Source: a virus. Taken from it: 58,085 bases of DNA. Under the pieces are notes generated by a model. The model was not told where the DNA came from, searched no databases, and worked only from the letters and a program-made list of their open reading frames with translations. The translations under genes and the position numbers were made by a program. The stretch lies in the IMG/VR virus record IMGVR_UViG_3300047199_000067, positions 1 to 58,085 of that record; one strand, written 5' to 3'. Below, piece by piece: positions 9,730-52,607 of this stretch (positions are counted from its first letter, which is position 1; each line of letters opens with the position of its first letter).

Positions 9730-10473
9730 ATGGAAAAGGATTATTCGAAAGAGTTGAGAGGCGTAGTTGAAATGACTCCGTGGCAGGTCGCAGAGATTAG
9801 AGAGTTGAAGAAACGTATTATGGCGCAGGAAGGAGGGGCGGGAGAGAAGGAGAAAGAGTTTCAATGGCAGGTCAGGTTATTGGCGTCTAATATGCCTCAT
9901 ATATATTGGGGGTTAGAATTAAAGGATTTCGGGGGAGATATAAAGTCGGCTACCATAGTACAAAAATATATCGGTATAATGAAAGAAGCATACGAGGCAG
10001 GACAGGGGATATTATTTTTAGGGCGGCACGGGACGGGTAAGACAATGCTCGCCTGTATCATAGGCAAAGAGGCGATGAGGAAGGGATATACGGTATATTA
10101 TATCGGCATACCAAGTTTGATTGACGGCATTATGTCGGGGTTTAGGAATGAGGAGGCTAAGGAGAGGTTGAGTACTATCGTAACAAGGACCGAGTTTCTT
10201 ATCATAGACGACCTCGGCAAGGAGTATAGGGGCATAGGTCAGAAGCTCGACCCTTTAGTAATGTTAGAGATGGATAGGATATTAAGAGAGAGGATTAACA
10301 GAGGCAAGGTTACTATCGCAACGACTAATTATGATATGAAAGCGGTTACAAAGGCATACGGGGATAGTGTACTTTCGGTATTAAGAGGATACGTCCAATT
10401 CATAGAGGTAAGCGGAGAGGACTTTCGAGGATATTTAGGGGACAAGTTTAAGGAGAGGCTCGAAAAGAAATGA
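9730..10473 (+). CDS. DnaC-like helicase loader, AAA+ ATPase
   Basis: 247 residues from ATG 9730 (AGGAG five bases upstream). Walker A GRHGTGKT lies at about 98-105, Walker B FLIIDDLGKEY near 156, and sensor-type ATTNYD near 197. This layout is that of DnaC/DnaI/IstB-like proteins, which load the replicative helicase onto DNA. The following gene is the helicase, overlapping by 4 bases, which supports the role. Confidence 0.88.
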   Translation: MEKDYSKELRGVVEMTPWQVAEIRELKKRIMAQEGGAGEKEKEFQWQVRLLASNMPHIYWGLELKDFGGDIKSATIVQKYIGIMKEAYEAGQGILFLGRHGTGKTMLACIIGKEAMRKGYTVYYIGIPSLIDGIMSGFRNEEAKERLSTIVTRTEFLIIDDLGKEYRGIGQKLDPLVMLEMDRILRERINRGKVTIATTNYDMKAVTKAYGDSVLSVLRGYVQFIEVSGEDFRGYLGDKFKERLEKK

Positions 10474-19831: not shown

Positions 19832-20146
19832 ATGAAGCAGATGTTAAATGCAGAAGTCAACAGCGAGACATTTAAGACGGTTTTACATAAGGCGAGATTA
19901 TTATGCGTGATGGACGCTATGGAGAAGGGCTTATCGCCGACCGTTCATTTCAAAATGACCATAGACTCTATCGACTTTGCCGCACAAGCCATAGCGGGTG
20001 CTATCGCAATACTCCATAGGGATAAGCAGGAGGAGTGCAAGAAGATGTTATTAGCTGATGTGGAAAAGGCGGTTAATCAATATTTAAAGGTCGCAGAGCG
20101 TTGTGTTGAGGTGGCTAAAAAGATGCACGGGGATTTGGAGATATGA
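19832..20146 (+). CDS. Hypothetical protein
   Basis: 104 residues, mainly helical, with AAQAIAGAIAILHRDKQEE in the centre. Stop overlaps the RmlB start. No recognised domain. Confidence 0.55.
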   Translation: MKQMLNAEVNSETFKTVLHKARLLCVMDAMEKGLSPTVHFKMTIDSIDFAAQAIAGAIAILHRDKQEECKKMLLADVEKAVNQYLKVAERCVEVAKKMHGDLEI

Positions 20147-21096
20147 AGATACTTGTAACGGGCGCATTAGGTTTTATCGGGAGTGCTTTTGTAAAATATA
20201 GTCTTGAGAAGATGAACGATATTAGGGTGGTCGGGTTTGACAAGAACGAAGACCAAAGGGCGGTATCGAGGCTGGCAGAGGTCAATGGTAGCCGTAAGTT
20301 TCAGATGATATATGGAGATTTTTGCGAGGACATATCGGAGCTGATGGAGGACGTAGAGGTAGTGTTCCATTTCGGGGCAAAGACTTTTGTTGACCATAGT
20401 GTAAAATCTCCTGAAAGTTTTGTTCGGAATAACATATACGGCACGTTCAATATACTTGAGGAGGTAAGAAAGGCTCGGAAAAGACCCCTGCTCGTATATA
20501 TCAGCACAGATGAAGTGTATGGGCAGACAGAAGGAGAAGCCCCGTTCACGGAGAAATCGGTATTGAATCCTACCAACCCGTATAGTGCGTCAAAGGCGAG
20601 CGCAGAAATGATGGTAATGGCATACGGGAAGTCGTATAATATAGAATACATCATAACAAGGTGTGAGAACAATTACGGCGCATATCAGAACCCGCAGAAG
20701 GTATTGCCGACTTATGTAAAGTATGGTTTACTTAATAAACCGTTGCCTGTATACAGCCCTGGCACTCATAAAAGGAAGTGGCTTTATGTTGACGACCATT
20801 GTAGGGCTTTATGGGAATTGGTCGAGTCGGGGTTCAGAGGCATAGCTAATATCGCAGGAGGGCACGAGTTACAGAATATAGAATTGGCAAGATTAGTGTT
20901 AACAGAGTTAGGTAAGAAGCCCGATATGATAGAAATGACCGACACGGGCAGGATAAGGCCGTTCCACGACAAGCGGTATCATATAAGGTCAATTATATTG
21001 GACTGTCTCGGATGGCAACCAACGACCAATATACAGGAAGGTATGCACAAAACGATAGGGTGGTTCGTGGATAACCAATGGTGGTTAGGGATATGA
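20143..21096 (+). CDS. rmlB: dTDP-glucose 4,6-dehydratase-like (RmlB)
   Basis: 317 residues of an extended short-chain dehydrogenase. NAD-binding GALGFIGS at residues 7-14, STDEVYG with the RmlB-type Asp-Glu pair, and the catalytic YSASK. RCENNYGAYQNP and HKRKWLYVDDH also match the RmlB branch. The reaction expected is dTDP-glucose to dTDP-4-keto-6-deoxyglucose. RmlA, which makes dTDP-glucose, is 1.7 kb downstream, supporting the pathway; RmlC and RmlD are absent. Related epimerases are hard to separate, so the exact sugar is tentative. Confidence 0.82.
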   Translation: MKILVTGALGFIGSAFVKYSLEKMNDIRVVGFDKNEDQRAVSRLAEVNGSRKFQMIYGDFCEDISELMEDVEVVFHFGAKTFVDHSVKSPESFVRNNIYGTFNILEEVRKARKRPLLVYISTDEVYGQTEGEAPFTEKSVLNPTNPYSASKASAEMMVMAYGKSYNIEYIITRCENNYGAYQNPQKVLPTYVKYGLLNKPLPVYSPGTHKRKWLYVDDHCRALWELVESGFRGIANIAGGHELQNIELARLVLTELGKKPDMIEMTDTGRIRPFHDKRYHIRSIILDCLGWQPTTNIQEGMHKTIGWFVDNQWWLGI

Positions 21097-21105
21097 GGAG
21101 AGGCA

Positions 21106-21663
21106 TTGGATATAGCATTAAAGGGTAAGTTTATAAACCATAATTTATGGGAGGCGATTAAAGCTCAAGGTTATTCAAACATCAATGAGTTTTGTCGGGT
21201 CGCTGGTATGAGCGCGTCATTGATAGGGCGATATATTAACCTGAAAAGTATACCTGTACAGAAAAATGTTTGTAAAAAGCTCGAAGAAAAGTTACATTGT
21301 CCGATTGATTATTTATTCCTTGACGATTTGTGCGCTTTTGTGAAGAAGAAACCTATAACAGAGGTATACGCTCATAAACGGGTCGATTTATTATCATTGG
21401 AAAATATCAAAGGTATAAGCTATGTTCCTGATTTGGATTTTGATAAGGCAGGAGAAATAGATAAAGTGCTGGATACTCTTACGAAAAGGGAAAGAAAAGT
21501 AGTAGAGTTGAGATACGGTCTTGATACGAACCCTAAAACATATCAGGAAGTAGGAGAAGAAATGTCCGTAACCCCTGAAAGAGCACGGCAAATAGAATTG
21601 CGTGCGTTACGGAAATTACGTCATCCTATACGGTCGAGAGAATTGGAAGTATATGTTAATTAA
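21106..21663 (+). CDS. HTH plus sigma70 region 4 regulator
   Basis: 185 residues, TTG start behind GAGGAGAGG. Residues about 12-75 resemble an XRE-like HTH ([20 protein letters not shown]). Residues about 120-175 are a clear sigma70 region 4: [15 protein letters not shown] then [19 protein letters not shown] and [10 protein letters not shown], the -35-recognition helix-turn-helix of RpoD. Regions 2 and 3 are absent, so it is not a complete sigma factor. It could redirect host RNA polymerase to phage promoters. Confidence 0.85.
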
Positions 21664-22536: not shown

Positions 22537-22801
22537 GAAAGAAAAGGAGATAGCCGATAAGACGGGGCAGTTGTTCGATATTAAGGACACAGACCTCGGC
22601 AAGAGTGCGAAGAAATTTTTAGCACTTCGGGAACAGATAGACAAGGCGAAGGGCGAGCTTGAGAAGGAAGGTATAGCTCTCGTAGAGTTAATGAACAGCG
22701 ACAAGAAGGACAGGATTACCATAGACGGCGTAACCTTATCAATAAAGATTACAATGGCAAGGGTTACAATAGCCATAAAGAAAGCGAAGGATACAGAGTG
22801 A
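22514..22801 (+). CDS. Hypothetical protein
   Basis: 95 residues from ATG 22514, behind AAGGAGGGT. Helical, with FLALREQIDKAKGELEKEGI followed by a short beta part (ITIDGVTLSIKI). Stop overlaps the RmlA GTG start. Confidence 0.55.
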   Translation: MVKRSVNKKEKEIADKTGQLFDIKDTDLGKSAKKFLALREQIDKAKGELEKEGIALVELMNSDKKDRITIDGVTLSIKITMARVTIAIKKAKDTE

Positions 22802-23535
22802 AGACAAAGGGAGTATTGCTCTGTGGAGGGGAAGGAACGAGGCTAAGACCGCTAACTAAAGCCGTCAATAAGCATATGATAAGGATAGGCAATAAACTGA
22901 TGTTGGACTATCCTATCAGTAAGTTTATAGACGCAGGGCTTAGAGATATTCACGTGGTAATCGGCGGCGAGCATTTTGATGCCATAGTAAAGTATCTTGG
23001 GAGTGGCTTTGACAGAGGAGTCAGGTTTACTTATTCAATGCAGGATAGGGCAGGAGGCATAGCAGAGGCGATAGGTCTTGCAGAGCAATTCGCAGACGGG
23101 CATAAGATAGTAGTAATTCTCGGCGATAATATTTTTGAGGCGAGTATATTCCCAGAGGTCGCTGATTTTATAGATTCTAAATGTAAGACAGAGGCAAGGT
23201 TGTTTTATACGCACTCGGATACCCCAGAAAAGTTTGGTTGTCTGGTTTATGGAGACGTGGGCGGTCCTGTTGATATAGTAGAAAAGCCAAAAGCTCCGCC
23301 AAGTAATGATATTGTTACAGGTATATATATGTATACTCCTGATGTATTCGAGGTCATTAAGACATTAAAACCGAGCAACAGAGGCGAGTTAGAGGTTACG
23401 GACTTGAGCCGTTATTATATGCTTAATGACACGTCAGAGTGTGTAATCCACGAATTGAAAGGTTGGTGGTCGGATTGCGGTTCGCTCGAAAGTATAGCGA
23501 AAGCGGAGGTATTAGTCAGGGCTTCAAACTTATAG
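22798..23535 (+). CDS. rmlA: Glucose-1-phosphate thymidylyltransferase-like (RmlA)
   Basis: 245 residues, GTG start in a GTGA overlap. The nucleotide-binding signature GGEGTRLRPLT is at 10-20, ILGDNIFE is the metal-binding Asp strand, and VEKPKAPP is the sugar-phosphate loop. It should join glucose-1-phosphate to dTTP, giving dTDP-glucose for the RmlB gene at 20143. Slightly shorter than cellular RmlA (about 290), lacking part of the C-terminal tetramer region. Confidence 0.85.
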   Translation: MKTKGVLLCGGEGTRLRPLTKAVNKHMIRIGNKLMLDYPISKFIDAGLRDIHVVIGGEHFDAIVKYLGSGFDRGVRFTYSMQDRAGGIAEAIGLAEQFADGHKIVVILGDNIFEASIFPEVADFIDSKCKTEARLFYTHSDTPEKFGCLVYGDVGGPVDIVEKPKAPPSNDIVTGIYMYTPDVFEVIKTLKPSNRGELEVTDLSRYYMLNDTSECVIHELKGWWSDCGSLESIAKAEVLVRASNL

Positions 23536-31697: not shown

Positions 31698-32084
31698 ATG
31701 TATCTGATAAAGAGCGAAGGCTCGTTTGATTCGGCTCATAAGCTCAAGGGCTATAAAGGCAAGTGTAGTCGGCTTCACGGCCACCAATGGCGATTTGAAG
31801 CCACTTTTGCTTTTTATGGTAAGCTTGATAAAATAGGGATTAGCATAGACTTTAAAGAGGTTAAGAATTGGCTAAAAGAGGTTGAGGAGAGATACGACCA
31901 TAAGCTATTGGTCTTTAAGCCAAACTCGACGGCAGAGGTTATAGTAAAAAAGATTTATGAGTTGTTGTCAGCGCATAACAAGGAAGGCGTTATAAGAGTC
32001 GCTAAGGTAGCCTTGTGGGAGACTCCGAATAATTGTATAGAGTATTATGAGGGGGTAGAGTCAGGAGGGGTGTTGAAATGTTAA
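31698..32084 (+). CDS. queD: 6-carboxytetrahydropterin synthase (QueD)
   Basis: 128 residues from ATG 31698, with TAGGAGG upstream; an earlier in-frame ATG would begin inside the leader. Zinc ligands His 14, His 27 and His 29 (SAH and LHGHQ), catalytic Cys 23, His 68 (DHKLL) and Glu 108 (WETPNN) match QueD of the 6-PTPS family. Converts the FolE product 7,8-dihydroneopterin triphosphate to 6-carboxy-tetrahydropterin, the QueE substrate. queE follows with a 7-base overlap and folE is two genes further on. Confidence 0.92.
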   Translation: MYLIKSEGSFDSAHKLKGYKGKCSRLHGHQWRFEATFAFYGKLDKIGISIDFKEVKNWLKEVEERYDHKLLVFKPNSTAEVIVKKIYELLSAHNKEGVIRVAKVALWETPNNCIEYYEGVESGGVLKC

Positions 32085-32686
32085 TTAATGAAATGTTTTT
32101 ATCCTTACAGGGCGAAGGATATGAGTCGGGCGAGTTGACCTATTTTATAAGAACGGCTCGTTGTAATCTCCAATGCTCGTGGTGCGATACTAAGTTCCAA
32201 GACCCTGCAACAGAGATGAGGGTGTTAGAGGTTATAGGCAAGGTAAGCAGGTGCGGGATAAAGAATATCTGTATCACAGGCGGAGAGCCGTTGCTTGAGG
32301 AGGACTTCTATCAATTGGAGGAGTGGCTATTTAAGGCAGGGTACAATACAGTCGTAGAGACGAACGGGAGCATATCAATAGAGAATATAAAATCTCAAGT
32401 TGCTATGGATATTAAGCCGCCGAGTAGCGGTATGGCGGAGCAGTTTTTGAGAGAAAATCTTGACCGTTTAAAGCCTAATGACCAGGTCAAGTTTATCATA
32501 CAAGACATCAAGGATTATGATTATGCAAAAGAAATGTTAAAGGATATAAAGCAGGGTAAGGTTATTTTTATGCCTGTGTGGGATGAGAAGTTCAAAGCAG
32601 CAAAGGATTTGGCAAGATGGATAATGGCGGACAGGCTATCGGTTCGATTGAGCCTTCAAATGCACAAGATACTGCATTTAAAGTAA
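32078..32686 (+). CDS. queE: 7-carboxy-7-deazaguanine synthase (QueE), radical SAM
   Basis: 202 residues. The radical SAM cluster is C29-x3-C33-x2-C36 (CNLQCSWC), preceded by MFLSLQGEG, the usual QueE opening; TGGEPLL and VETNGS also fit. Rearranges carboxy-tetrahydropterin to 7-carboxy-7-deazaguanine (CDG). Slightly shorter than E. coli QueE (223). Its end overlaps the phosphoribosyltransferase gene. QueC, which converts CDG to preQ0, is not seen in the window. Confidence 0.92.
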   Translation: MLINEMFLSLQGEGYESGELTYFIRTARCNLQCSWCDTKFQDPATEMRVLEVIGKVSRCGIKNICITGGEPLLEEDFYQLEEWLFKAGYNTVVETNGSISIENIKSQVAMDIKPPSSGMAEQFLRENLDRLKPNDQVKFIIQDIKDYDYAKEMLKDIKQGKVIFMPVWDEKFKAAKDLARWIMADRLSVRLSLQMHKILHLK

Positions 32687-33093
32687 GCTGGCAGGATTTT
32701 GCAGAGATTATGGACCAGCTCGTGCGGAGAGTGCCGAGATATAATACCTATGTCGGGATAGCCCTCGGTGGGCTATTCCCTGCGGCGTTTCTGGCTAAGT
32801 TTTATGACGCCGAGTTTATGTTTATGCAGTTTAAGCATTATAAAGACAGACAGAAATTAGAGAACGTTCGGTGGGGAGGTAATTACGGCAGACCGTACGG
32901 TAGCGTATTGATAGTAGACGACGTATCTGATACGGGAGAGACGCTGATAATGGCTCAAAAGCAAATGCCGTGGGCGGATACGTTAACATTATTCGTTAAG
33001 CCGCAGACAAAGTTTAAACCGACGTATTTTTGGTCTGAAACTGATAGATGGATAGAGTATCCTTGGGAGAGAAGCATTGAAAAGAGACCATAA
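32617..33093 (+). CDS. Phosphoribosyltransferase, purine (Gpt-like) type
   Basis: 158 residues. YVGIALGGLFPAAFLA is the PRTase first loop, and VLIVDDVSDTGETL is the PRPP-binding signature. The overall layout and DRWIEYPWE near the end resemble xanthine/guanine phosphoribosyltransferases. It overlaps QueE by 70 bases, so a shorter start is possible, but no other start is convincing. In this operon it could reclaim the guanine released when DpdA exchanges bases, or charge a deazaguanine; this is inference. Confidence 0.8.
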   Translation: MDNGGQAIGSIEPSNAQDTAFKVSWQDFAEIMDQLVRRVPRYNTYVGIALGGLFPAAFLAKFYDAEFMFMQFKHYKDRQKLENVRWGGNYGRPYGSVLIVDDVSDTGETLIMAQKQMPWADTLTLFVKPQTKFKPTYFWSETDRWIEYPWERSIEKRP

Positions 33094-33610
33094 TTTAATA
33101 AGGAAAGCTATAAGAGATTTTTTGATTGGCTTGGGAGAAGACCCTGAAAGGGATGGTATTAAGGAAACGCCTGATAGGGTAGCCCGTATGTGGATGGGGT
33201 TTAATGGTGAAGAAAAGCCATATCTCAAGACCTTTAAGTGCGAATACAGTGAAATGGTAGTAGTAAAGGAGTTGCCTTTTTACAGTTTTTGTGAACATCA
33301 TCTTGTCCCGTTCTTTGGAGTGGCTAAGATAGGATATTTACCTAAAAAGAAGGTGTTGGGGTTAAGCAAGGTGGCAAGGATTTTAGACTTTTATGCTCTA
33401 CGTCCGCAGATACAAGAACAGTTGACAATGCAGGTTGCGAAAGACCTGATGTCATTATTAAAGCCGAGCGGGGTGGGGGTTATCATAGAAGCGGAGCACC
33501 TTTGTATGTCAATGAGGGGAGTCAAGAAACCAGGTCATAGAACCGTAACAAGTTGCTTATTGGGTAAGTTCCAAGACGCAAAGGTCAGGGAGGAGTTCTT
33601 GAAGCTATGA
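33077..33610 (+). CDS. folE: GTP cyclohydrolase I (FolE)
   Basis: 177 residues from TTG 33077 (GGGAGAG upstream). FolE hallmarks: DGIKETPDRVARMW near 27-39, zinc ligands Cys 72 and His 75 (FCEHHLVPFFG) and Cys 143 (HLCMSMRGV). It opens GTP to 7,8-dihydroneopterin triphosphate, feeding QueD. Length is typical for the type I enzyme core. A phage copy implies demand for deazaguanine beyond the host supply. Confidence 0.93.
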   Translation: MKRDHNLIRKAIRDFLIGLGEDPERDGIKETPDRVARMWMGFNGEEKPYLKTFKCEYSEMVVVKELPFYSFCEHHLVPFFGVAKIGYLPKKKVLGLSKVARILDFYALRPQIQEQLTMQVAKDLMSLLKPSGVGVIIEAEHLCMSMRGVKKPGHRTVTSCLLGKFQDAKVREEFLKL

Positions 33611-33954
33611 ATAGGATATGGGTTTGGTGTACTTTTGAGTTTGAGGGTTTTCATAGATGGGCGGGTGCGCCCGATAGCGTGGAGTATTTAAGAACCAAGC
33701 ACAGGCATTTATTCAAGTGCAAGGTGTGGGTAGAGGTCAGGCACGAGGATAGAGAGATTGAGTTCATAACATTGAAGCACGATTGTCAAAAGGCATTAGG
33801 GGTATTGGATATAGAAAGAGTGGGGTCGTGCGAGGTGGTTGCAGGAACGATATTGATGGAGCTCAAAAAGATATATCCTAAAAGGATGATGATGGCAGAG
33901 GTAAGTGAGGACGGAGAGTGCGGAGCGAGGGTTGAGTTAGATGATAGGGAATAG
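33607..33954 (+). CDS. Second QueD-like (6-PTPS-fold) protein
   Basis: 115 residues, ATGA overlap with folE. FEFEGFHRWAGAP, LRTKHRHLFKCKVWVEV and FITLKHDCQKAL echo the strand and His pattern of QueD, but the canonical C...HGH motif is replaced (RHLF) and the catalytic Cys is not evident. As the operon already has a canonical QueD, this paralogue may act later in the pathway, for example on CDG; a CDG decarboxylase (DpdL) has been predicted in other phages, but I cannot equate the two. Confidence 0.6.
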   Translation: MNRIWVWCTFEFEGFHRWAGAPDSVEYLRTKHRHLFKCKVWVEVRHEDREIEFITLKHDCQKALGVLDIERVGSCEVVAGTILMELKKIYPKRMMMAEVSEDGECGARVELDDRE

Positions 33955-33955
33955 G

Positions 33956-34924
33956 ATGATAGATTTAGAGAAAATCAAAGGCAATATACCAACCTGCATA
34001 CAGGTAGATTGGCAGAGAGAGGTGTATATACATAATCGTATGCTTGCAAACCCGCACGGGGTTGAGTATCCCAGGGTCTATCAGCTTGAGACGACGAGTG
34101 TATGTAACCTGAATTGTGTATTCTGCCCAAGAAAGAATCTCATAAGACCAAGACAAGATATGAGTCAAGATTTATTTAAGACTATTGCTGACAGAGATTT
34201 ACGATGGACAACAGCCATTGAGTTATTCGGGTTTGGAGAGCCATTATGCGACCAGAACTATCCTGCCAGAGTAGAGTATCTCAAGTCATTAGGTAAGTAT
34301 ATCGTGGTCGCTTCAAACTGTCTTTTGGCTGACCGTATGCCTGATAGTTTATGGAAGATGGTTGACTATCTCGTCATCGATGTTGACGCAGTAAATAAAG
34401 AGCATTATGAGGCGGTCAGGGTTGGCGGTAGCTGGGAGAAGATGAAAGAGAACGTACAAAAAGTCCTGGCTATCAGAAAAGCAGCTCAAAAGTACAGCGT
34501 AGTGCAGTATATAGATTATGAATCGGAGGAAGAAGACAAGCAGAAATTTATAGCAGAGTATACAGGTCTGGCTGATGAGATAAGAGTCAAGTTCCTGGAT
34601 ACTTTCGCTGGACAAGTCCTTGAGGGAGAGCCGCAGAAAGAGGTCTGTTGCCTTGAACCTTTATATGGCGTGTCTATATGGAGCAACGGTGATGTGGTGA
34701 TGTGTGATAGAGACTTCAACGCTATCAACAGGCTTGGCAATGTAGGTGAGCATAGCTTAATGGATATATGGGGAAGCGATAAGGTGCAGTTTACCCAGAA
34801 TAGACATAAGGAATACAGGGGAGAAAGTCTGACTCCCTGCGACCAATGTAAGGAGTGGGTGTTAACGAATTTAAGAAACGTGCCTGAACTGACGGTCAAT
34901 ATGTTCAGGGGAGGTTTTGTATGA
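33956..34924 (+). CDS. Radical SAM protein with SPASM-like C-terminus
   Basis: 322 residues from ATG 33956 (33941 is an alternative). Radical SAM cluster C50-x3-C54-x2-C57 (CNLNCVFC); FGFGEPL is the GGE-like motif. C-terminal Cys (VCCLEPLYG, VVMCDRDF and CDQCKEW) suit a SPASM domain holding extra Fe-S clusters. Related enzymes modify peptides, sugars or small molecules. Here it sits between QueD-like and glycosyltransferase genes with ATGA coupling, suggesting action in the same modification; the substrate is unknown. Confidence 0.82.
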   Translation: MIDLEKIKGNIPTCIQVDWQREVYIHNRMLANPHGVEYPRVYQLETTSVCNLNCVFCPRKNLIRPRQDMSQDLFKTIADRDLRWTTAIELFGFGEPLCDQNYPARVEYLKSLGKYIVVASNCLLADRMPDSLWKMVDYLVIDVDAVNKEHYEAVRVGGSWEKMKENVQKVLAIRKAAQKYSVVQYIDYESEEEDKQKFIAEYTGLADEIRVKFLDTFAGQVLEGEPQKEVCCLEPLYGVSIWSNGDVVMCDRDFNAINRLGNVGEHSLMDIWGSDKVQFTQNRHKEYRGESLTPCDQCKEWVLTNLRNVPELTVNMFRGGFV

Positions 34925-35982
34925 TTTGGTTTGTGCCTTTAGAACGGCTTGAGGAACGTTATACCAGTCAGATGTATAATTGGGTGATTGACGGCTTACA
35001 AAGAGCTAATGTCAGGTATAAGGTTATAGAAGGCAAGCCTCTAACAAGAGGAGTAGAAACGGGAGAGGTATTGGACGCAGAAGGCACTAACTATTATAAG
35101 GCGTCGCAGCTTATGGAGATATGCCAGCTATTCAAGTATAATGAGATAAAGAACGGGGACACGTTTTTTATAGCTGACTTGTGGTTTCCTGGGATAGAGA
35201 CGATAAGATATATCGAAGCCCAGAGGCGTATGCAGGTCAATATAGCTGGCGTCCATTATGCTGGAGTATTCGATAAGCACGATTTTGTTCATAAGATGAA
35301 GCATTGGGCTATGTATAATGAGCTTGGCTGGTTAAAGCTGGCGAATTGGATATTCGTAGGGAGCGAATATCATAAGTCTTTAATAGTGCAAGGGATGTAC
35401 GATAATGGCATACAGGACGCACAGTATAAGATATACGCAACGGGGCTGGTGTGGGACGCCGAGTATGTAAAGTCTGACGTGAAGCGTAAGGAGAGGCAGG
35501 TCATATTCCCGCACAGGACAGATATGGAGAAGAACCCGAAGGACTTCTTTACTCTGGCTGACATTATGAGGCAGACAGACGAGGGGGTTAAGTTCGTAAT
35601 CACCAGCTCAAGAAAGCACCTATCAAGCAATATACAGAATTTTGAAATCCCTTATTATATAACCTATAAGTGCGGGCTTACAAAGCAGGAGTATTATGAT
35701 GAGCTTGCAAGGTCAAAGGTCTTGTTCTCAAGCGCACACCAGGAGACGTTTGGTTATGCGTTGAATGAGGGTTTACAGTTAGGGTGTATCCCGATTTGTC
35801 CTAACCGATTGTCTTATCCAGAAGTTGTGGAACACGATGAACGATTATTGTATGACAGCATATCAGAGGCGGTAGTAAAGGTTAAAGCGGCGTTGGAAGC
35901 CGATTGGGACATACGGTATTATACGAACAAGTACTCAAAGAATATAGACAGGATGTTAGAGATAATGGAGGTAGATAAGTAA
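34921..35982 (+). CDS. Glycosyltransferase, GT-B fold (GT4-like)
   Basis: 353 residues. The C-terminal lobe has SSAHQETFGYALNEGLQLGC followed by P-x-C, the E-x7-E type donor-binding motif of GT4-like enzymes, and VIFPHRTDMEKNPKDF is a linker strand. No signal peptide. Located inside the deazaguanine operon directly before dpdA, so it may glycosylate a modified base, as DNA glucosyltransferases do in T-even phages; alternatives are surface or virion glycosylation. Confidence 0.78.
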   Translation: MIWFVPLERLEERYTSQMYNWVIDGLQRANVRYKVIEGKPLTRGVETGEVLDAEGTNYYKASQLMEICQLFKYNEIKNGDTFFIADLWFPGIETIRYIEAQRRMQVNIAGVHYAGVFDKHDFVHKMKHWAMYNELGWLKLANWIFVGSEYHKSLIVQGMYDNGIQDAQYKIYATGLVWDAEYVKSDVKRKERQVIFPHRTDMEKNPKDFFTLADIMRQTDEGVKFVITSSRKHLSSNIQNFEIPYYITYKCGLTKQEYYDELARSKVLFSSAHQETFGYALNEGLQLGCIPICPNRLSYPEVVEHDERLLYDSISEAVVKVKAALEADWDIRYYTNKYSKNIDRMLEIMEVDK

Positions 35983-37835
35983 TGCGCGTTTATCTTGCAG
36001 GAGCAGAGATGCACGGAAGACCTGAATTGCTTTTAGGGCAAAAGGTCAAGTATGTTCTCGGTTCTTATTATTATATGAGGGATAAAAGGGACGGCGGTAT
36101 TGAACGCCTTAAAGGATATAAGGAAGCAGGTTGTGAGATATTTGTAGATTCAGGAGCGCATACGTTCTTTAGTGAGCTTGGTATGGGACACGGGGTCGTG
36201 GTTACGAAGGAGACAAAGACACAGGAGAGTTATGAGGAGTATTTCGAGAAGTACCTTACCTGGCTATTGACAGTAAAGGATATAGTAAGCTGCTATGTAG
36301 AGCTTGACATACAGGAGATAGTAGGGCAGGTGCAGATATGGGAGTGGAGAAGAAGGATGCGAGAGGTAGGGTTAGACCCCATAGTAGTATTGCACCCTAA
36401 AGCAAGCGATAACGTGGACAAGGAGTGGGATAGGTTGACAAGCGAGTTCACTTACTGCGCCATAGAAGGAAGCCTCCCGACCAATAGGTATGTGGGCTGG
36501 CTGACGATGAGCGAGAAGAAGAAGGTCAGGGTACACGGCTTCGCAATGACTAAGGTAGACGAGATGAGGAGATGTAAGTTCTACTCTGTTGACTCTACTT
36601 CTTGGACATCGGGCGGACGCTTCGGAGGAACTTACTTTTACCGTGGTGGTGGGCGTATGGAGGCATTTGGAAAAGATGAGAAGCGAGGCAGGGTACGGTT
36701 CAAGCAATCATTAATAAAGGCAGGCATAGATTGGGAAGCCCTTGAGAGGGACGACAACACAGAGATAGATAGGATGAACTGTTTCGCCTGGAAGCAGTTT
36801 GCAGATTGGGCAGACCGCTACCTCTTAACTAATTATGAGAGGGAAGTAGAGGGCAAAGGTCAGCAACCAAGTCAACCAATCCAACCCATAGGAGAAGGAA
36901 GGATAGCGGAGGGTACGGGAGAGTTCCTAAAGGGAGAGATACCAGCAGAGGCATTGGAGGGAGCAGTAGAGTTACCAGAGAGGAAGGAAAGAGTAGAGGA
37001 AGGTAGTAGCCTTATCAAGGAAGGCAGTAACGGTAGCGTAGAGGGGGGTAATGTAGGAGGGAGTTCTGATTCTGGTTCTTATTCTGGAGTAGTTTCTAAA
37101 GAAGTTTATAAAGAGGATAAAGGAAGCGAGGGGGGCGGAGAGGGGAAACCGAAACTCTTAAATGGGGTAGCCGATACTTTTGTGGAGAACAAGGGCAATA
37201 TACAGCAAATCCTCAAGGAAAACCCTCTTGTTGAGGAGCAGAGGCGTAAAACTTTATCGGTAGTCAAAAAGGGGAATATTGATACGCTCAAGCACGGAAG
37301 GTATGCAAGCGACCCTGTTATTTATTGTAGAGAGAATTGTCCCAAGTTCGATAGTTGCCCTCATAAGATTGGCGTGGGTTCGATATGTTATTTTGATACA
37401 AGATGGCGTCCTATCGTCGAGAGAATACAAAGCACGCAACCAGAAGTAATCCTCGAAGCTCTGGTGATGTTCGTAAGGACACAGCTCCCAAGGTTAGCAA
37501 AGAACCAGGGGTTTGAAAGCATAGATGGAGGTTACATAGATAAGAACGTAACCATATTAGCTGATAGAATATTCCAATGGCTAAAGGACATACACGTACT
37601 AATGACTCCGAAGCAACCATTAGTCCAAGTGGGTGGCGACCTAACCATACAGAAGATTGAGAACATAGTGGATAGGCTACCTGCCGATAAAGCCAAGAAG
37701 ATAGGGGACGCTATATGCGAGGTAGAGTGTATAGATACAGAGGGGGATAAGTTCGGAGGAGAGGAAAGTATTGAGGCAGAGGTAGTAAAGGAAGTCACAG
37801 AGGATAAAGAGAAAGTAGAGGAAGGTAAGCAATAG
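35982..37835 (+). CDS. dpdA: DpdA-like guanine transglycosylase fused to small-terminase-like domain
   Basis: 617 residues in one frame. Residues 1-285 resemble DpdA/TGT TIM barrels: VDSGAH at 55-60 takes the place of the TGT DSGGF motif, VVLHPK at 135-140, VRVHGFAMT at 183-190 and SVDSTSW at 202-208 with an active-site-type Asp. Residues about 290-395 are a Gly/Ser/Glu linker. Residues 396-617 contain a Cys cluster C449-x3-C453-x5-C459-x9-C469 behind LKHGRYASDPVIYCRENC, which resembles Cys-rich small terminase proteins. DpdA inserts 7-deazaguanines in DNA by base exchange. The terminase large subunit follows 620 bases later. Confidence 0.75.
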   Translation: MRVYLAGAEMHGRPELLLGQKVKYVLGSYYYMRDKRDGGIERLKGYKEAGCEIFVDSGAHTFFSELGMGHGVVVTKETKTQESYEEYFEKYLTWLLTVKDIVSCYVELDIQEIVGQVQIWEWRRRMREVGLDPIVVLHPKASDNVDKEWDRLTSEFTYCAIEGSLPTNRYVGWLTMSEKKKVRVHGFAMTKVDEMRRCKFYSVDSTSWTSGGRFGGTYFYRGGGRMEAFGKDEKRGRVRFKQSLIKAGIDWEALERDDNTEIDRMNCFAWKQFADWADRYLLTNYEREVEGKGQQPSQPIQPIGEGRIAEGTGEFLKGEIPAEALEGAVELPERKERVEEGSSLIKEGSNGSVEGGNVGGSSDSGSYSGVVSKEVYKEDKGSEGGGEGKPKLLNGVADTFVENKGNIQQILKENPLVEEQRRKTLSVVKKGNIDTLKHGRYASDPVIYCRENCPKFDSCPHKIGVGSICYFDTRWRPIVERIQSTQPEVILEALVMFVRTQLPRLAKNQGFESIDGGYIDKNVTILADRIFQWLKDIHVLMTPKQPLVQVGGDLTIQKIENIVDRLPADKAKKIGDAICEVECIDTEGDKFGGEESIEAEVVKEVTEDKEKVEEGKQ

Positions 37836-46717: not shown

Positions 46718-48289
46718 ATGTTCAGCGGGAATGAAAGCCAGATTAAGATAGCAATGTTGAGGATAGGGGGCATTGGTGATGCATTAAATTTATCAGCACA
46801 AGCAACAGCGGTCAAGAGAAAATATCCTGACGCTCATATAACGCTCTTTGTCAGAGATATGGATTGTAAAGAAGTGGTCGACGGACATCTTGCCGTAGAC
46901 CACGTTGTCGTTATAGGGAGGGTTAAGTGGGAGGACGGGTTAAGCATTATACGACAAAAGAATTTTGACATTGTTTATGATAACAGATACGTAACGAAAG
47001 TTTATTATAAGGACGAAGCTCAATTCGCAGAGGATAAAAGACAGACCGACGAGGCGTTTAAGCCTTATAAAGATTTATATGAAGGGTTTCCGTTAACCAA
47101 TAATCAGGCGGGGAAGACAGGTAAGAGTTCCATAGAGTTGATGTTAGAGACCGCAGTCCTGGTGGGGGGAGAAGGAGATTTAGCCATATCATTATCGTTC
47201 GCTGATTGCAATATGGCGAAATTATTATATCAGGAAAAATATATAACTATACATAACGGAGCAGATGTAGGGCGGCAGACAAAGTGCTGGAGTACAAAAA
47301 AATGGAATGAGTTTAGTAAATGGTTATGTGAAAAAGGATATAAGGTCATACAGCTCGGCAGGAGGCAGGAAGAACCCGTTGATTCTACGACAGATATGCG
47401 TGGTAGAACATCTATAAAAGAAGCGGCAGCCCTTATCGGTGGGGCAAGATTGCATATAGATACGGAAGGTGGATTAGTCCATATTGCCAGAGCGGTAAAG
47501 ACAAGGTCAATAGTCCTGTTCGGTCCTACGCCAGTAAAGTTCTTTGGATATAAATGCAATGTTAATCTGATGGGAGAGAGCGACTGTAAGGAGTGCTGGT
47601 GGGAGAGCGATATATGGTGGCGTGAGTGTCCAAAAGGGTATCCTGCACCAGCGAAATGTATGGAAAGCATAACTCCTTATACAGTAGCCAAAGCGGTAGA
47701 GCAGGCAGAGACGATGCCCCCGCTGGAAGGCGGGTTCAACCCTGTTGATTATAACGAAGAATTTGCTATGGAACTTGCTCTTGACGGCGACCATTACAGA
47801 GGCGAAGCTCATCAGTGGGACAGAATTTATACAATGATGGCGAAGGTCAGGGGTAAAAAAGTTTTAGAAGTAGGGGCAGGAGACGGTTATTGTGTCGAAG
47901 TCCTAAAGAAACAGGGCTATGAGGTTAGTGCGACAGAGGTATCACAGGTAAGACTTGATAGAATGAAAAGGAGGGGTATAGATGCGGTATATGGGGATGT
48001 TAATGGTCTGCCTTACCCTGATAATTATTTCGATTCTGTTATCTGTGGAGAGGTGCTTGAGCATATTGATTCTATGGCGAAAGGTCTAAGTGAATTAGAA
48101 AGGGTTTGTAAAAAAGACGGGATAATAATTATATCGTTGCCTGTATCGCCAGAGATGAGACAGATTAAAATGCACAAGTGGGGCATAGGACACCACGAGA
48201 TTTTACGGGAAGGTAAAATCAGTATGGTGGTTCTTACATTAGAAAGGATAAACCGAGATGAAACGGGTAGTGATAATCGGCAAGGGTAA
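46718..48289 (+). CDS. Fusion: GT9-like glycosyltransferase plus SAM methyltransferase
   Basis: 523 residues. Residues about 1-330 are GT-B/GT9-like (heptosyltransferase type): MLRIGGIGDALNLSAQA at the start, and DTEGGLVHIARAVKTRSIVL with FGPT as the donor loop. Residues about 375-500 are a class I methyltransferase: VLEVGAGDGYCVEVL, YGDVNGLPYPDNYFD and CGEVLEHID. It may add and methylate a sugar. It follows the capsid gene but is separated by the terminator. Confidence 0.8.
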   Translation: MFSGNESQIKIAMLRIGGIGDALNLSAQATAVKRKYPDAHITLFVRDMDCKEVVDGHLAVDHVVVIGRVKWEDGLSIIRQKNFDIVYDNRYVTKVYYKDEAQFAEDKRQTDEAFKPYKDLYEGFPLTNNQAGKTGKSSIELMLETAVLVGGEGDLAISLSFADCNMAKLLYQEKYITIHNGADVGRQTKCWSTKKWNEFSKWLCEKGYKVIQLGRRQEEPVDSTTDMRGRTSIKEAAALIGGARLHIDTEGGLVHIARAVKTRSIVLFGPTPVKFFGYKCNVNLMGESDCKECWWESDIWWRECPKGYPAPAKCMESITPYTVAKAVEQAETMPPLEGGFNPVDYNEEFAMELALDGDHYRGEAHQWDRIYTMMAKVRGKKVLEVGAGDGYCVEVLKKQGYEVSATEVSQVRLDRMKRRGIDAVYGDVNGLPYPDNYFDSVICGEVLEHIDSMAKGLSELERVCKKDGIIIISLPVSPEMRQIKMHKWGIGHHEILREGKISMVVLTLERINRDETGSDNRQG

Positions 48290-48824
48290 TAATTGGGAGA
48301 AGTCCCCGCCGTTATGTACTTCGATGGCTCTTGATGATAGGTATGAGTGCTGGGGAGTGAATAATGTGTGCCTATGGAGACCCGTGGATTTGGTATTCAA
48401 TATGCACGACCTTGAAAAGCATAAAGACCATAAATTATTTAACAAGGTCATAGCCCACGTTAACGAGTATAAAATTCCGATGATATGCCAAGACCATTAT
48501 GAGCATATACCGACGTCAATGCGTTTTCCGATAGAGACTTTAAAGATAAAGTATTTTACGAATAGTATTGATTATATGGTTGCTTATGCCATAGTTAAGC
48601 AGATGAGGATGATAGATATATACGGAGTCGTGATGGGAGCAGATACCGAATACGATAAGCAAAGGTCGAGCCTGCATTTTTGGATTGGGATAGCTATTGG
48701 TATGGGGCTTGGTGTCAGAGTTAATGAGCCGACCTATTTATTAAAAGATACAAAGGGCTTATACGGATATGATTGGGACGACGAGGGAGAGGGGTTTGTA
48801 AAGTCCAGGGAGGAAAATCAATGA
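48258..48824 (+). CDS. Rossmann-like phage protein, possible glycan enzyme
   Basis: 188 residues, overlapping the preceding gene by 32 bases. VVIIGKGNNWEKSPPL at the start, VDLVFNMHDLEKHK and TNSIDYMVAYAIVKQMRMI form a pattern I recall in phage proteins of unknown function with a Rossmann-like fold, often near glycosyltransferases. No catalytic residue can be assigned. Confidence 0.55.
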   Translation: MKRVVIIGKGNNWEKSPPLCTSMALDDRYECWGVNNVCLWRPVDLVFNMHDLEKHKDHKLFNKVIAHVNEYKIPMICQDHYEHIPTSMRFPIETLKIKYFTNSIDYMVAYAIVKQMRMIDIYGVVMGADTEYDKQRSSLHFWIGIAIGMGLGVRVNEPTYLLKDTKGLYGYDWDDEGEGFVKSREENQ

Positions 48825-49021
48825 TGGATAGAATCCCTGTAATAGTTATAAGAGCACCGATAGGCGTGGACATATTAAGTATCTGGCAGGCTAATGATAT
48901 GGACGGCTGGTCGATAGAGGTACTCTATACAGAACACGGCAATATGAAAATGAAAACTATCAAGGTCGACGAGTGCAAACCGTTCGGCGAGGGAGAAGAT
49001 GAATCGAGGTCAAGGTTCTGA
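48821..49021 (+). CDS. Small hypothetical protein
   Basis: 66 residues from ATG 48821 (AGGGAGGAAAATCA); 48824 is equally possible. Beta-rich (IPVIVIRAPIGVDILSIW). Last base shared with the next ATG. Confidence 0.5.
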   Translation: MMDRIPVIVIRAPIGVDILSIWQANDMDGWSIEVLYTEHGNMKMKTIKVDECKPFGEGEDESRSRF

Positions 49022-49728
49022 TGGGTAATGACGGAGTGGACATAGTCGTATTGAATTGTAATAATAAGGGCTATATTGAAAACTGTATCAATTCGATATT
49101 AAGATATACTCAAGGATTGATTAATCTTATAGTCGTTGACCAGGGTTCGACCGACGGTTCAAGAGAGTGGTTAAAGCAGAAAAAGATTTCGCATTTGATA
49201 CTCAATACCAAGAACGCAGGGGTAGGCGAAGGTCGCAATCAAGGGATAAAGGTCGGCAGATATTCGTGGGTATCTTTTATAGACAGCGACATTGAAATTA
49301 AAGACAGCGAGTGGCTGGATAAGTTATGGAATTATACGACGGACAGCGTAGGTTTTATTGAGGGGGCTATGTTCGAGAACAATGAAAAGCGATACGGCAG
49401 TATGGCTTTTAATCTTGTCAGGCGGGAGGTATTTAGGGAGGTCGGCTTATTCGATAAGAAGTTTTTTGTAGGAGAGGATTTGGATTTTTATGTAAGGATG
49501 GAGTGGGCTGGCTGGCAGGTGCAATATTGCCCCGATACAAATGTTATTCATTATGGCGGAGGCACGCTAAGGAAAGTTCTCGGTGATGAATACCAGAAGT
49601 ATGAACAGGAAAGAGATAAGTTATTATCTTATAAGTATTCATACAGTATGCTCAAGGAAATGTTATCAAAGAATATGCAGAGAAGAATAGAAGCAGAAAA
49701 GGTATTAAAGGAGGTGGCGTATGGGTGA
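49021..49728 (+). CDS. Family 2 glycosyltransferase
   Basis: 235 residues of GT-A fold. VDIVVLNCNNKGYIENCIN, VVDQGSTDGSREWL and the metal-binding DSD in WVSFIDSDIEI are GT2 hallmarks; GEDLDFYVRMEWAG is the acceptor-side ED motif. Transfers a sugar from a nucleotide donor; target unknown. Confidence 0.88.
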   Translation: MGNDGVDIVVLNCNNKGYIENCINSILRYTQGLINLIVVDQGSTDGSREWLKQKKISHLILNTKNAGVGEGRNQGIKVGRYSWVSFIDSDIEIKDSEWLDKLWNYTTDSVGFIEGAMFENNEKRYGSMAFNLVRREVFREVGLFDKKFFVGEDLDFYVRMEWAGWQVQYCPDTNVIHYGGGTLRKVLGDEYQKYEQERDKLLSYKYSYSMLKEMLSKNMQRRIEAEKVLKEVAYG

Positions 49729-50071
49729 TATGCCCTACAAAGTAGAAGTAGATATTGACCCGATGGAAATTACGGCAGAGGATTACGGGTACGATATCAA
49801 TTTTACAGTGAAGAAAGCGGATAACACGGCATTGTCATTAACAGGAATAAGTAAGGTCAAGTTTCAAGTCGTATCTGCGGACGATAGCAGAAGTATCCTG
49901 GATGTCGATTGTGTTGTTGTAGAGGCGGGTACAGGAAAGGTTAAGTATACGGTACAGAACGGCAATTTTAATAAAGCAGACCAATTTTTGGGCGCTCTGG
50001 AACTCCAATATACTACGAAGCGTATAACAACGAAGAAATTTTTTATGACTGTCAAGAAAAAATCTGCATAA
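49721..50071 (+). CDS. Probable structural protein (beta-sandwich)
   Basis: 116 residues, AAAGGAGGTGGC upstream. Alternating beta strands (INFTVKKADNTALSLTG, VKFQVVS, VKYTVQN) resemble the N-terminal domain of baseplate upper (BppU-like) proteins or an Ig-like decoration. No enzyme motif. Confidence 0.55.
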   Translation: MGDMPYKVEVDIDPMEITAEDYGYDINFTVKKADNTALSLTGISKVKFQVVSADDSRSILDVDCVVVEAGTGKVKYTVQNGNFNKADQFLGALELQYTTKRITTKKFFMTVKKKSA

Positions 50072-50083
50072 CATAAATTTTTC

Positions 50084-50112
50084 TTGCCTTTTATAAGAGT
50101 GTATGTTATATT
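50084..50112 (+). promoter_or_regulatory. Late-type promoter
   Basis: TTGCCT, 17-bp spacer containing TTTATAAGAGTGT, then TATATT and CGTGGTG. It shares 13-mers with both 38150 and 43278. Confidence 0.8.
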
Positions 50113-50159
50113 CGTGGTGTGGGTTCACGGAGTGTCCAGACAAGAAAGGAGAAAGAGCG

Positions 50160-50618
50160 ATGAAATACAGTGATATTAAAGTCAAAGGGTTTGCTCGCAT
50201 CCAGCTTGTAGACCCCACAAATGGAAAGATTACTGGCGATAGCGGTTGGAGGAAGAATACCGTAGTTAATCTTGGATTCCAAGATTATATCGTCGGTAGC
50301 ATTGGTGCTATAGGTGGCAGCAAGTCCGTAGCATATATGGCTATCGGAACAGGCGGCGCACCAGCGGCAGGCGATACCTCACTTTCGGGTGAGACAGGCG
50401 CAAGAGTTACCACAAGTAACAGTGCCGTTGCATCAAAGACCTTACAGTGTACGGCCCAATTTGCAGGAAGCTCAATGGGTTCAACCTGCACAATACAGAA
50501 CGTCGCATTGGTAAATGTATCAAGCGGCGGAACGATTCTGTGCGGTACGACCTATGCCACTTCACAGTGGGCAAGCAACCAGAATGTAAACGCCACTTAC
50601 CAACTTCGCTTCTCATAA
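50160..50618 (+). CDS. Probable virion structural or decoration protein
   Basis: 152 residues from ATG 50160. Beta-rich, Gly/Ser/Thr-rich (VAYMAIGTGGAPAAGDTSL) ending YQLRFS, like phage head-decoration or fibre-tip proteins. It has its own late promoter and terminator, a one-gene unit, which suggests high late expression. Confidence 0.6.
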   Translation: MKYSDIKVKGFARIQLVDPTNGKITGDSGWRKNTVVNLGFQDYIVGSIGAIGGSKSVAYMAIGTGGAPAAGDTSLSGETGARVTTSNSAVASKTLQCTAQFAGSSMGSTCTIQNVALVNVSSGGTILCGTTYATSQWASNQNVNATYQLRFS

Positions 50619-50680
50619 TCGATATTTTGATTAAGAAGGAGTAGATAAGAGGTAGTTCCTTTCGACTGGACGAACTTAAT

Positions 50681-50716
50681 AAATAGGAGAGAAGAAATTC
50701 TCTCCTATTTATTTTT
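50681..50716 (+). terminator. Rho-independent terminator
   Basis: A perfect 13-bp stem (AAATAGGAGAGAA / TTCTCTCCTATTT, GAAA loop) followed by ATTTTT. Confidence 0.95.
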
Positions 50717-50718
50717 AG

Positions 50719-50747
50719 TTGACATTGATGTTCTGATGATGTATAAT
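50719..50747 (+). promoter_or_regulatory. Consensus promoter for leaderless HNH gene
   Basis: TTGACA, exactly 17 bp, TATAAT. The likely +1 is at 50754, the A of the HNH start codon. Confidence 0.9.
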
Positions 50748-50753
50748 GTCGAT

Positions 50754-51221
50754 ATGCCTAAGGGTTTTTATATTACAAAAGAGGGCTATATTAAGGTCAT
50801 TAAGCCGAAAGACCACCCGAATAAAGGACGTTATATCTTTTTGCATAGACTTGTTATGGAGAAAAAATTAGGAAGATATTTACGTTCAGAGGAAAGAATT
50901 TATCATAGAGACGGCAATAAGCAGAATAATGCAGAAGAGAATTTAGAGTTGTTTGCAAACCAAAGTGCGCACGCACAGAGAGGAGTTATAGAAGGCAGAA
51001 AATATAAATTGTTATGGGATAAAGAGTGGATGATAGAACAATATATAAATAGGCAAAAATCGTGTAGTGAAATCGCAAAACAAGTTGGATGTAGAGAAGG
51101 AACGGTTAGGAACGCTTTAATAATACAAGGATTTAAGCGGCGTAGATATACGTTGACAAAACTCGCACTTGATAGTAGACTAAAAGGGGTTATGGTTAAA
51201 AAATTAAGGTCGAGAAAATAG
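50754..51221 (+). CDS. HNH homing endonuclease with HTH
   Basis: 155 residues from ATG 50754; two ATGs at 50736/50739 lie upstream of or inside the -10 box and are ruled out. YIFLHRLVMEKKLGR then YHRDGNKQNNAEENLEL is an HNH core with Asp-Gly-Asn in the usual place. SCSEIAKQVGCREGTVRNA is a C-terminal HTH for DNA recognition. AT-rich, no ribosome binding site, inserted in a gap between structural genes: a mobile intergenic endonuclease. Confidence 0.85.
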   Translation: MPKGFYITKEGYIKVIKPKDHPNKGRYIFLHRLVMEKKLGRYLRSEERIYHRDGNKQNNAEENLELFANQSAHAQRGVIEGRKYKLLWDKEWMIEQYINRQKSCSEIAKQVGCREGTVRNALIIQGFKRRRYTLTKLALDSRLKGVMVKKLRSRK

Positions 51222-51237
51222 AAAAAGGGGGACAAAG

Positions 51238-51798
51238 ATGAAAACACGTCAGAAAATTCCTGCCAGTATCAGTACAATTCTCAAAAAAAATAATTTAGGT
51301 ATCAAGCTCGATGTCGGTTGCGGCAGTAATAAGCAGCCTGGCTTTGTCGGTATGGATAAGAGGAAGGTCGAGGGAGTAGATATAGTCCACGACGCAGAAG
51401 TGTTCCCTTATCCATTACCAGATAATTGCTGTTCGCAAATATTGATGAGCCATTTAGTAGAGCATATCAAGCCCTGGTTGATGATAGATTTATTCAATGA
51501 ATTATGGAGGGTAATGCAACCAGAGGGGCAGTTATTAATATCTGCGCCCTACGGAGGGAGCTTCGGATTTTGGCAAGACCCGACCCATTGTAACGGATGT
51601 AACGAGGCAACGTGGACTTATTATGACCCCGATTATTTTTTATATAGGATATATCAGCCGAAGCCCTGGAGGATAGCAAGGAATGCCTGGTGGGAGACAG
51701 GCAATATGGAAGTCATAATGGAAAAAAGATTAACGGCAGTAATGTTAGAAAACCCGAAGGGCTTACCTACCAACGAGAATAAGGGGGTGGCAAAGTGA
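51238..51798 (+). CDS. SAM-dependent methyltransferase
   Basis: 186 residues. IKLDVGCGSNKQPGFVGMD is motif I/II of class I methyltransferases, and LMSHLVEHIKPW with MQPEGQLLISAPYGG are the later strands. This short UbiE/SPASM-like type is common in glycan clusters. Coupled to the following GT by a 4-base overlap. Confidence 0.82.
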   Translation: MKTRQKIPASISTILKKNNLGIKLDVGCGSNKQPGFVGMDKRKVEGVDIVHDAEVFPYPLPDNCCSQILMSHLVEHIKPWLMIDLFNELWRVMQPEGQLLISAPYGGSFGFWQDPTHCNGCNEATWTYYDPDYFLYRIYQPKPWRIARNAWWETGNMEVIMEKRLTAVMLENPKGLPTNENKGVAK

Positions 51799-52607
51799 AG
51801 AAGAAAACTATACAGTCAAATATGCAAGCCCCTAAGAGGGACGTATGGCAGGGATGGCAGAAGAAGGTTTGTATCGCAGTACCGACGACAGGGCAGGTTA
51901 GGGTGGAGTGGATGATGGCGAGGTTCAGCCAGGTCATACCAGTCAATTGGGCTAACGGAGATATATTCCAATATTTCGACCAATATTCGCCTATGGGATG
52001 GGCGGTAGCAGACGCAAGGAATTGTTGCGTACATTATTCCGTAACGGGCGGATTTGAGTGGACGCTGTTCATAGACCACGATGTGATATTACCGCCTGAT
52101 TGTTTCTTGAAGATGAACGAATATATGAGAAGCAAAAAGTACCCCGTGGTGTGCGGGCTTTATTATTGCAAAGGGTCGAACCCAGAGCCGTTGTTATTCA
52201 GAGGCAGAGGAACGTCGTATTACGATAAGTGGAAAAGGGGAGACAAGGTTTGGGTAGACGGAATCCCGATGGGGTGTACGTTGATACATAATAGCGTGAT
52301 GAAAGCCATATATGACGTATCAGAGCAATATACTTTAAAAACCCTGGGTGGTCCGCAGGTCAGCAGGAGAGTATTCGAGACTCCAAGAAAGGTATGGTAT
52401 GACCCCGAAGCAGGGACGTACAATACACAGATAGGGACAGAGGATTTATTCTGGTGCGACAGGGTGATGAAAGAAAAGATATTCGAGAAGTCGGGTTGGA
52501 AGAAGTTTCAAAAGATGCAGTATCCGTTTCTTTTAGATACTTCAATATTCTGCCAGCATATTGACGAGAGAGGTTTTATGTATCCTGCCAATGTAGGCAT
52601 ACGATAA
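51795..52607 (+). CDS. GT-A glycosyltransferase-like protein
   Basis: 270 residues, GTG start overlapping the previous stop. VCIAVPTTGQVRVEWMM at the start, WTLFIDHDVILPPD (DxD-type metal site) and GIPMGCTLIHNSVMKAI suit GT2-like enzymes found in phages. Third sugar transferase in this section. Confidence 0.75.
   Translation: MKKKTIQSNMQAPKRDVWQGWQKKVCIAVPTTGQVRVEWMMARFSQVIPVNWANGDIFQYFDQYSPMGWAVADARNCCVHYSVTGGFEWTLFIDHDVILPPDCFLKMNEYMRSKKYPVVCGLYYCKGSNPEPLLFRGRGTSYYDKWKRGDKVWVDGIPMGCTLIHNSVMKAIYDVSEQYTLKTLGGPQVSRRVFETPRKVWYDPEAGTYNTQIGTEDLFWCDRVMKEKIFEKSGWKKFQKMQYPFLLDTSIFCQHIDERGFMYPANVGIR

Follow-up and report, generated by a model that had tools for sequence, protein, structure and literature searches.

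Which base does a phage place in its DNA when it encodes the enzymes for 7-carboxy-7-deazaguanine (CDG) and a DNA guanine transglycosylase, but no QueC? The question is raised by an operon at 31698–37835 (6.1 kb) of IMG/VR record IMGVR_UViG_3300047199_000067, a viral stretch of 58,085 bases (the window) that has no end repeats and may be an incomplete contig. Eight + strand genes lie here head to tail, with neighbouring ends overlapping or abutting (Table 1). We suggest, from gene content and conservation, that they encode a pathway that does without QueC and gives phage DNA a glycosylated 7-deazaguanine, a reading that we regard as rather probable, if well short of certain. FolE, QueD and QueE would convert GTP to CDG; a QueD-like T-fold protein (QDL) would convert CDG, most likely decarboxylating it to 7-deazaguanine; DpdA, in keeping with the function of its family, would swap guanine in DNA for the base so formed; and a glycosyltransferase (GT), as its exclusive linkage to such genes suggests, would add a sugar to the deazaguanine, either once it is in DNA or before it is inserted. 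A purine phosphoribosyltransferase (PRTase) would salvage the displaced guanine into the nucleotide pool, and a radical SAM/SPASM enzyme may, more tentatively, tailor the sugar or the base.

The formation of CDG from GTP is established chemistry of the FolE, QueD and QueE families, and by profile searches this gene set is complete in the window. QueD keeps all its diagnostic residues in the alignment (H14, C23, H27, H29, D67, H68 and E108, covering the catalytic Cys, Asp and His and the zinc histidines), and DpdA, whose phrog_887 match spans residues 1–581, retains all six positions that do not vary across 30 relatives (D56, G58, D109, H138, H185 and D204), including the catalytic aspartates D56 and D204. 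With E-values of 1e-10 to 1e-65 for pathway genes within so short a stretch, chance is excluded as an explanation of these sequence matches and the operon can be taken as real; judged by gene content, the system is one of DpdA-type 7-deazaguanine DNA modification. The compact order QueD-QueE-FolE-QDL-slot-GT-DpdA, where the slot is a variable position between QDL and GT, recurs across many contigs; when the operon was compared with phages at the DNA level, no match was found. The original prediction, which had described a coupled operon of QueD, QueE, FolE and a DpdA-like gene with additional PRTase, QueD-like, radical SAM and GT genes, is confirmed in this respect: all lie in one + strand run, and the additional genes are relevant to the pathway.

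The operon shares FolE, QueD, QueE and DpdA with the QueC/DpdA systems that make dPreQ0 and dG+ in phages such as CAjan and 9g (Hutinet et al., 2019, PMC6884629), but has QDL, GT, the radical SAM/SPASM protein and the PRTase where these have QueC or Gat-QueC. Neither gene of the dPreQ0/dG+ branch was found in the window, itself a possibly incomplete contig. The absence of QueC had already been claimed, and the claim holds for the entire record, in which a profile search with PF06508 gave no match; the same result speaks against an overlooked PP-loop protein of QueC type there. Since the record may be incomplete, absence of QueC at the level of the genome rests also on relatives. All 10 named phages with QDL (X1, ACP17, BUCT-ZZ01, Phosso, Paride, phiST, RHph_I1_18, Ahp1_CNU-2021, Roos and Bakedbeans) are without QueC above the cut-off in profile searches, all five named phages with QueC (CAjan, 9g, nt-1, Dp-1 and PhiXhv-12) are without QDL, the first four of these also being without GT, and no QueC match was obtained in any of 24 GT-selected contigs below 100 kb. 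In Amycolatopsis, a minimal prophage cassette, DpdA-QDL-QueD-QueE-FolE, adjoins phage genes that, by eye, resemble those for terminase and portal. Full-length QueC was not found in the QDL-bearing genomes of Amycolatopsis, Streptomyces NEAU-Y11 and Aurantimonas, where only PP-loop matches of about 60 residues near the cut-off are present (23–25 bits at best); Magnetospirillum and Bradyrhizobium have full-model QueC matches of 233–264 bits. These three genomes weaken the proposal that host QueC completes the pathway. Considering that the QDL family is found without QueC in the tested phages and in some cellular genomes, the pathway therefore appears built to run QueC-free, and the simplest reading would be that QDL is a QueC substitute acting on CDG. 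Separately, in Aurantimonas sp. VKM B-3413 (locus L192) QDL and GT are adjacent in a genome without convincing QueE or QueC; this cassette may have decayed or be supplied in some other way.

What kind of protein is QDL? A sequence search against the PDB returned chance thioredoxins only, and the relation to QueD came from the fold search: the best PDB match of the AlphaFold model (pLDDT 92.5) is Escherichia coli QueD (4ntk; TM 0.79, 20% identity), and an hhalign comparison of the QDL and QueD profiles gave 95.7% probability. QDL has in common with 4ntk the T-fold, the three zinc histidines (H16, H32 and H34), an aligned Thr/Ser-x-Glu and a Glu, but not the catalytic Cys and Asp-His, and alignments reveal new invariant residues (R33, R49, E52, S74-C75-E76, E101-D102 and E104). 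Across 46 aligned QDL rows the zinc histidines, the Ser-Cys-Glu and the Asp/Glu-rich end motif are all invariant, whereas the QueD catalytic Cys and Asp-His pair, kept in 31 of 31 true QueD rows of the same loci, are not conserved. By its modelled fold and its residues, QDL is thus a T-fold protein with three zinc histidines that has departed from QueD chemistry. A role as a second functional QueD was rejected, the catalytic Cys and Asp-His being missing. Most likely, QDL is a CDG-converting enzyme, and among such activities we favour a predicted decarboxylase. Decarboxylation is preferred because Cui and colleagues are said to have reported in 2023 both dDG and dCDG in phages together with a predicted CDG decarboxylase, DpdL, to which QDL may correspond; the pathway of those phages would, like that of the window, be based on CDG and lack QueC.

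Relatives of QDL lie in similar operons of Xanthomonas X1, Acidovorax ACP17, Synechococcus BUCT-ZZ01, Sinorhizobium Phosso, Pseudomonas Paride, Cellulophaga phiST and Rhizobium RHph_I1_18, and in Aeromonas Ahp1_CNU-2021 the pathway neighbours of QDL are limited to FolE and a radical SAM gene of QueE type. Like the window, phiST has QDL (close behind FolE) and no QueC; unlike the window, which also has the radical SAM gene, it has no GT. In 67 loci (for example L159:7803-8327 and L002:4219-4704) QDL has near it a conserved protein of some 175 aa that matches nothing significantly in Pfam or PHROG; this protein was not found in the window.

FolE, QueD, QueE and DpdA alone would yield CDG, and the end product could accordingly be CDG itself, inserted as dCDG, or dPreQ0 if host QueC acts, with QDL, the radical SAM protein and GT outside the pathway. 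CDG was suggested in a 2019 survey (PMC6884629) for the QueC-less phage Bipper, which is also without QDL and GT. For the window we consider such an outcome quite unlikely, given that QDL and GT are embedded in the pathway and specific to it, that QDL cassettes reside in genomes devoid of full-length QueC, and that none of the tested named phages has both QDL and QueC.

The sugar is argued for by GT. Its AlphaFold model (pLDDT 95.1) has a GT-B fold of the GT4 kind, with MshA, BshA and PglA as nearest structural matches, tetrahydrobiopterin glucosyltransferase lower down and SenB also matched; a sequence search against the PDB gave weak matches. GT has the R/K (R199, K204) and E-x7-E (E275-x7-E283) residues in common with the UDP-sugar transferases MshA, BshA and PglA and with tetrahydrobiopterin glucosyltransferase, but differs from them in its low identity (10–15%), in a family-specific N-terminal motif, ExxExRY, and in occurring only with 7-deazaguanine genes in the sampled loci. 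By these residues and the modelled fold, GT is a catalytically intact enzyme of the GT4-like, retaining type. Eighty GT loci were taken from at least 374 IMG/VR relatives, 64 of them non-redundant; at least one of QDL, FolE, QueD, QueE and DpdA lies within 9 kb of GT in 64 of 64, and QDL is present in 58, in a set picked by similarity to seeds from such phages, so that distant members with other gene neighbours may have escaped. Moreover, a one-sequence tblastn search with GT gave 20 phage records at E<=1e-5 in six lineages; of the one member examined from each, five carry QDL and 7-deazaguanine genes, and the sixth, PhiXhv-12, carries FolE, QueE and a GATase-QueC fusion. GT is therefore bound to the 7-deazaguanine pathway, being found solely beside such genes in everything sampled.

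PhiXhv-12 shares with the window FolE, QueE and a related GT (E=7e-40), though this match covers only part of the model, and unlike the window it has QueC and no QDL. Its locus (L169) clusters genes for the GATase-QueC fusion, a PIG-L deacetylase, GT, a MocA-type oxidoreductase, GNAT and a Leu/Phe-transferase, and looks like another sugar-bearing hypermodification cassette; no relatives turned up when this GT was the sole query of a scan.

This linkage bears on the proposal that QDL makes 7-deazaguanine, that dDG alone is the DNA base, and that GT, merely co-transcribed, acts on a host glycan or virion component. Some QDL cassettes do lack GT, and the structural region of the window holds other glycosyltransferases, both in line with such a division of labour. 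We nevertheless hold it to be improbable, since GT accompanies the pathway genes in every non-redundant locus, in unrelated phages of up to 470 kb and often abutting QDL or DpdA, and since a GT relative is kept in PhiXhv-12 although the pathway there uses a GATase-QueC fusion. The original prediction, that CDG is the end product unless host QueC or an unrecognised gene acts and that the final base is unpredictable, is not supported by these results: QDL occurs without QueC above cut-off in the tested phages, and because GT is found only beside 7-deazaguanine genes, the base would be constrained to a CDG-derived and very likely glycosylated one.

The slot between QDL and GT, filled in the window by the radical SAM/SPASM protein, is not occupied by one conserved family across loci. 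It holds SPASM relatives, PAPS-reductase-like PP-loop proteins, or a second radical SAM family (24 loci) whose nearest curated models are B12-type methyltransferases; in the closest relative of the window, locus L089 (IMGVR_UViG_3300017963_003169), it holds a ThuA protein and a zinc alcohol dehydrogenase. The best solved relative of the window protein is BtrN, an aminocyclitol dehydrogenase, with a match confined to residues 201–304 (the SPASM part) and not extending to whole-chain similarity. With low confidence, we predict that the slot enzyme is a tailoring oxidoreductase for the added sugar.

The PRTase, the start of which overlaps queE by 70 nt, matches the xanthine PRTase model NF006613 at 2e-16, below its curated cut-off, and PDB purine and xanthine/guanine PRTases at 1e-11 to 5e-8; its PRPP loop, DD-x2-D-x-G-x-T, is invariant in the alignment of relatives. 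Because DpdA frees one guanine for each exchanged base, guanine recycling would be a natural role for the PRTase, which probably feeds this guanine back into the nucleotide pool. The tubercidin pathway resembles the window in making CDG through FolE, QueD and QueE homologues without QueC, in having a PRTase and in a proposed decarboxylation, but yields a free nucleoside rather than a DNA base (PMC6112128). Its PRTase, TubE, uses CDG and phosphoribosyl pyrophosphate (PMC6112128), a precedent for a scheme in which the window PRTase turns CDG or its product into a nucleotide for incorporation by polymerase, with DpdA secondary. We judge this very unlikely, as the closest families are xanthine/guanine PRTases, the catalytic residues of DpdA are kept, and relatives of the PRTase, found in other QDL/GT loci, are missing from most (present in 14 of 64 non-redundant GT loci).

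Several points weigh against a glycosylated 7-deazaguanine made through QDL. We know of no solved T-fold CDG decarboxylase. Many QDL loci are without GT (e.g. phiST, RHph_I1_18 and Ahp1_CNU-2021), and GT is therefore an addition and not a necessity; further, neither the slot enzyme nor the PRTase is present in all relatives. The QueC pattern has blemishes, namely a single 16-bit QueC match, below cut-off, in phage X1, and partial PP-loop matches above the QueC cut-off in two of 41 metagenomic QDL or GT contigs, both larger than 300 kb. In the tubercidin pathway, unlike the scheme suggested here, decarboxylation of the CDG nucleotide is proposed to proceed via a UbiD-type enzyme (PMC6112128). 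Finally, if QDL leaves C7 unsubstituted, the acceptor of GT would not be obvious. In a speculative and, on balance, doubtful elaboration, QDL removes the carboxylate and so exposes a nucleophilic C7, which GT C-glycosylates, with interchangeable radical SAM enzymes or dehydrogenases tailoring the sugar. In a further scheme, GT glycosylates the CDG carboxylate to give an acyl-sugar ester, and QDL has another role, such as binding or carrying CDG or making a different C7 group. A carboxylate is a simple glycosyltransferase acceptor, QDL keeps a possible substrate-anchoring Glu, and its gained invariant Arg residues could hold a carboxylate. However, QDL also occurs in GT-free cassettes, where CDG is the sole upstream product, which implies that it acts independently of GT, and we find the ester unlikely.

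For the sugar donor assumed by the glycosylated 7-deazaguanine pathway, the window encodes a nucleotide-sugar epimerase/dehydratase that could possibly supply it, with no positional link to the operon, and a sugar-1-phosphate nucleotidyltransferase that could possibly help (Table 1). In other loci an epimerase of phrog_540 is placed by GT, and 14 loci in all were counted with an epimerase for nucleotide sugars close to GT.

Table 1. Genes of the operon and candidate sugar-donor genes in the window
Feature	Coordinates	Strand	Support
QueD, 6-carboxy-tetrahydropterin synthase, 128 aa	31698..32084	+	PTPS PF01242 5e-29
QueE, 7-carboxy-7-deazaguanine synthase, radical SAM with CxxxCxxC	32078..32686	+	PF04055 3e-10; phrog_2076 1e-35; TIGR04349 1e-51
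Type I PRTase, putative xanthine/guanine type	32617..33093	+	PF00156 (Pribosyltran) 2.6e-6; NF006613 2e-16
FolE, GTP cyclohydrolase I	33077..33610	+	PF01227 3e-65
QDL, QueD-like T-fold protein, 115 aa	33607..33954	+	phrog_17812 2.5e-20; Pfam: no match
Radical SAM/SPASM protein	33941..34924	+	PF04055 2.8e-16; PF13186 8.9e-10
GT, GT4-like GT-B glycosyltransferase	34921..35982	+	Glycos_transf_1 PF00534 1.9e-11
DpdA, DNA guanine transglycosylase	35982..37835	+	phrog_887 2.4e-41
Nucleotide-sugar epimerase/dehydratase	20143..21096	+	PF16363 6e-58; PF01370 3e-52
Sugar-1-phosphate nucleotidyltransferase	22798..23535	+	PF00483 1.8e-47

Other features were seen in passing. DpdA has a long C-terminal extension with a Cys-rich domain (37089–37835), common to loci L129 and L144; the L144 copy of the domain weakly matches the terminase small subunit family phrog_6902 (E=0.005), and in the window the large terminase follows closely behind DpdA, while a distinct small terminase was not recognised there. 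A DpdA–terminase link is possible. In L089 dpdA (10025–12036) is split in two by an apparent IS5-type transposase gene on the minus strand (10620–11456; insertion sequence called by eye), and the same contig has a Hammerhead type II ribozyme at 857–923; no Rfam family was found in the window. Downstream of the terminase/portal region, the window carries a second glycosyltransferase/methyltransferase group (46718–52607; a GT9 fused to a methyltransferase, a GT2 and others), and at 21106–21663 a possible phage transcription regulator, whose N-terminus is a helix-turn-helix and whose C-terminus is a sigma-70 region 4.

To our knowledge, the 7-deazaguanine bases of phages known so far carry small groups at C7 and none carries a sugar, so that a glycosylated one, as predicted here, would be new. 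Among the papers searched, none on glycosylated 7-deazaguanine in phage DNA was found, and the text of the Paride phage paper mentions neither deazaguanine nor queuosine. The cassette is widespread, with at least 595 QDL and at least 374 GT relatives in IMG/VR, and its cultured carriers (Pseudomonas Paride and PA5oct, Acidovorax ACP17) make the prediction directly testable; it also provides a specific assignment target for phrog_17812, an abundant protein family without an assigned function. Should the C-glycoside be real, hundreds of phages would share a family of hypermodified guanines with the sugar joined carbon-to-carbon at C7. Phages classically protect their DNA from nucleases and CRISPR by glycosylating its pyrimidines; a glycosylated 7-deazaguanine, if confirmed, would be the purine counterpart of these bases and a new class of DNA hypermodification.

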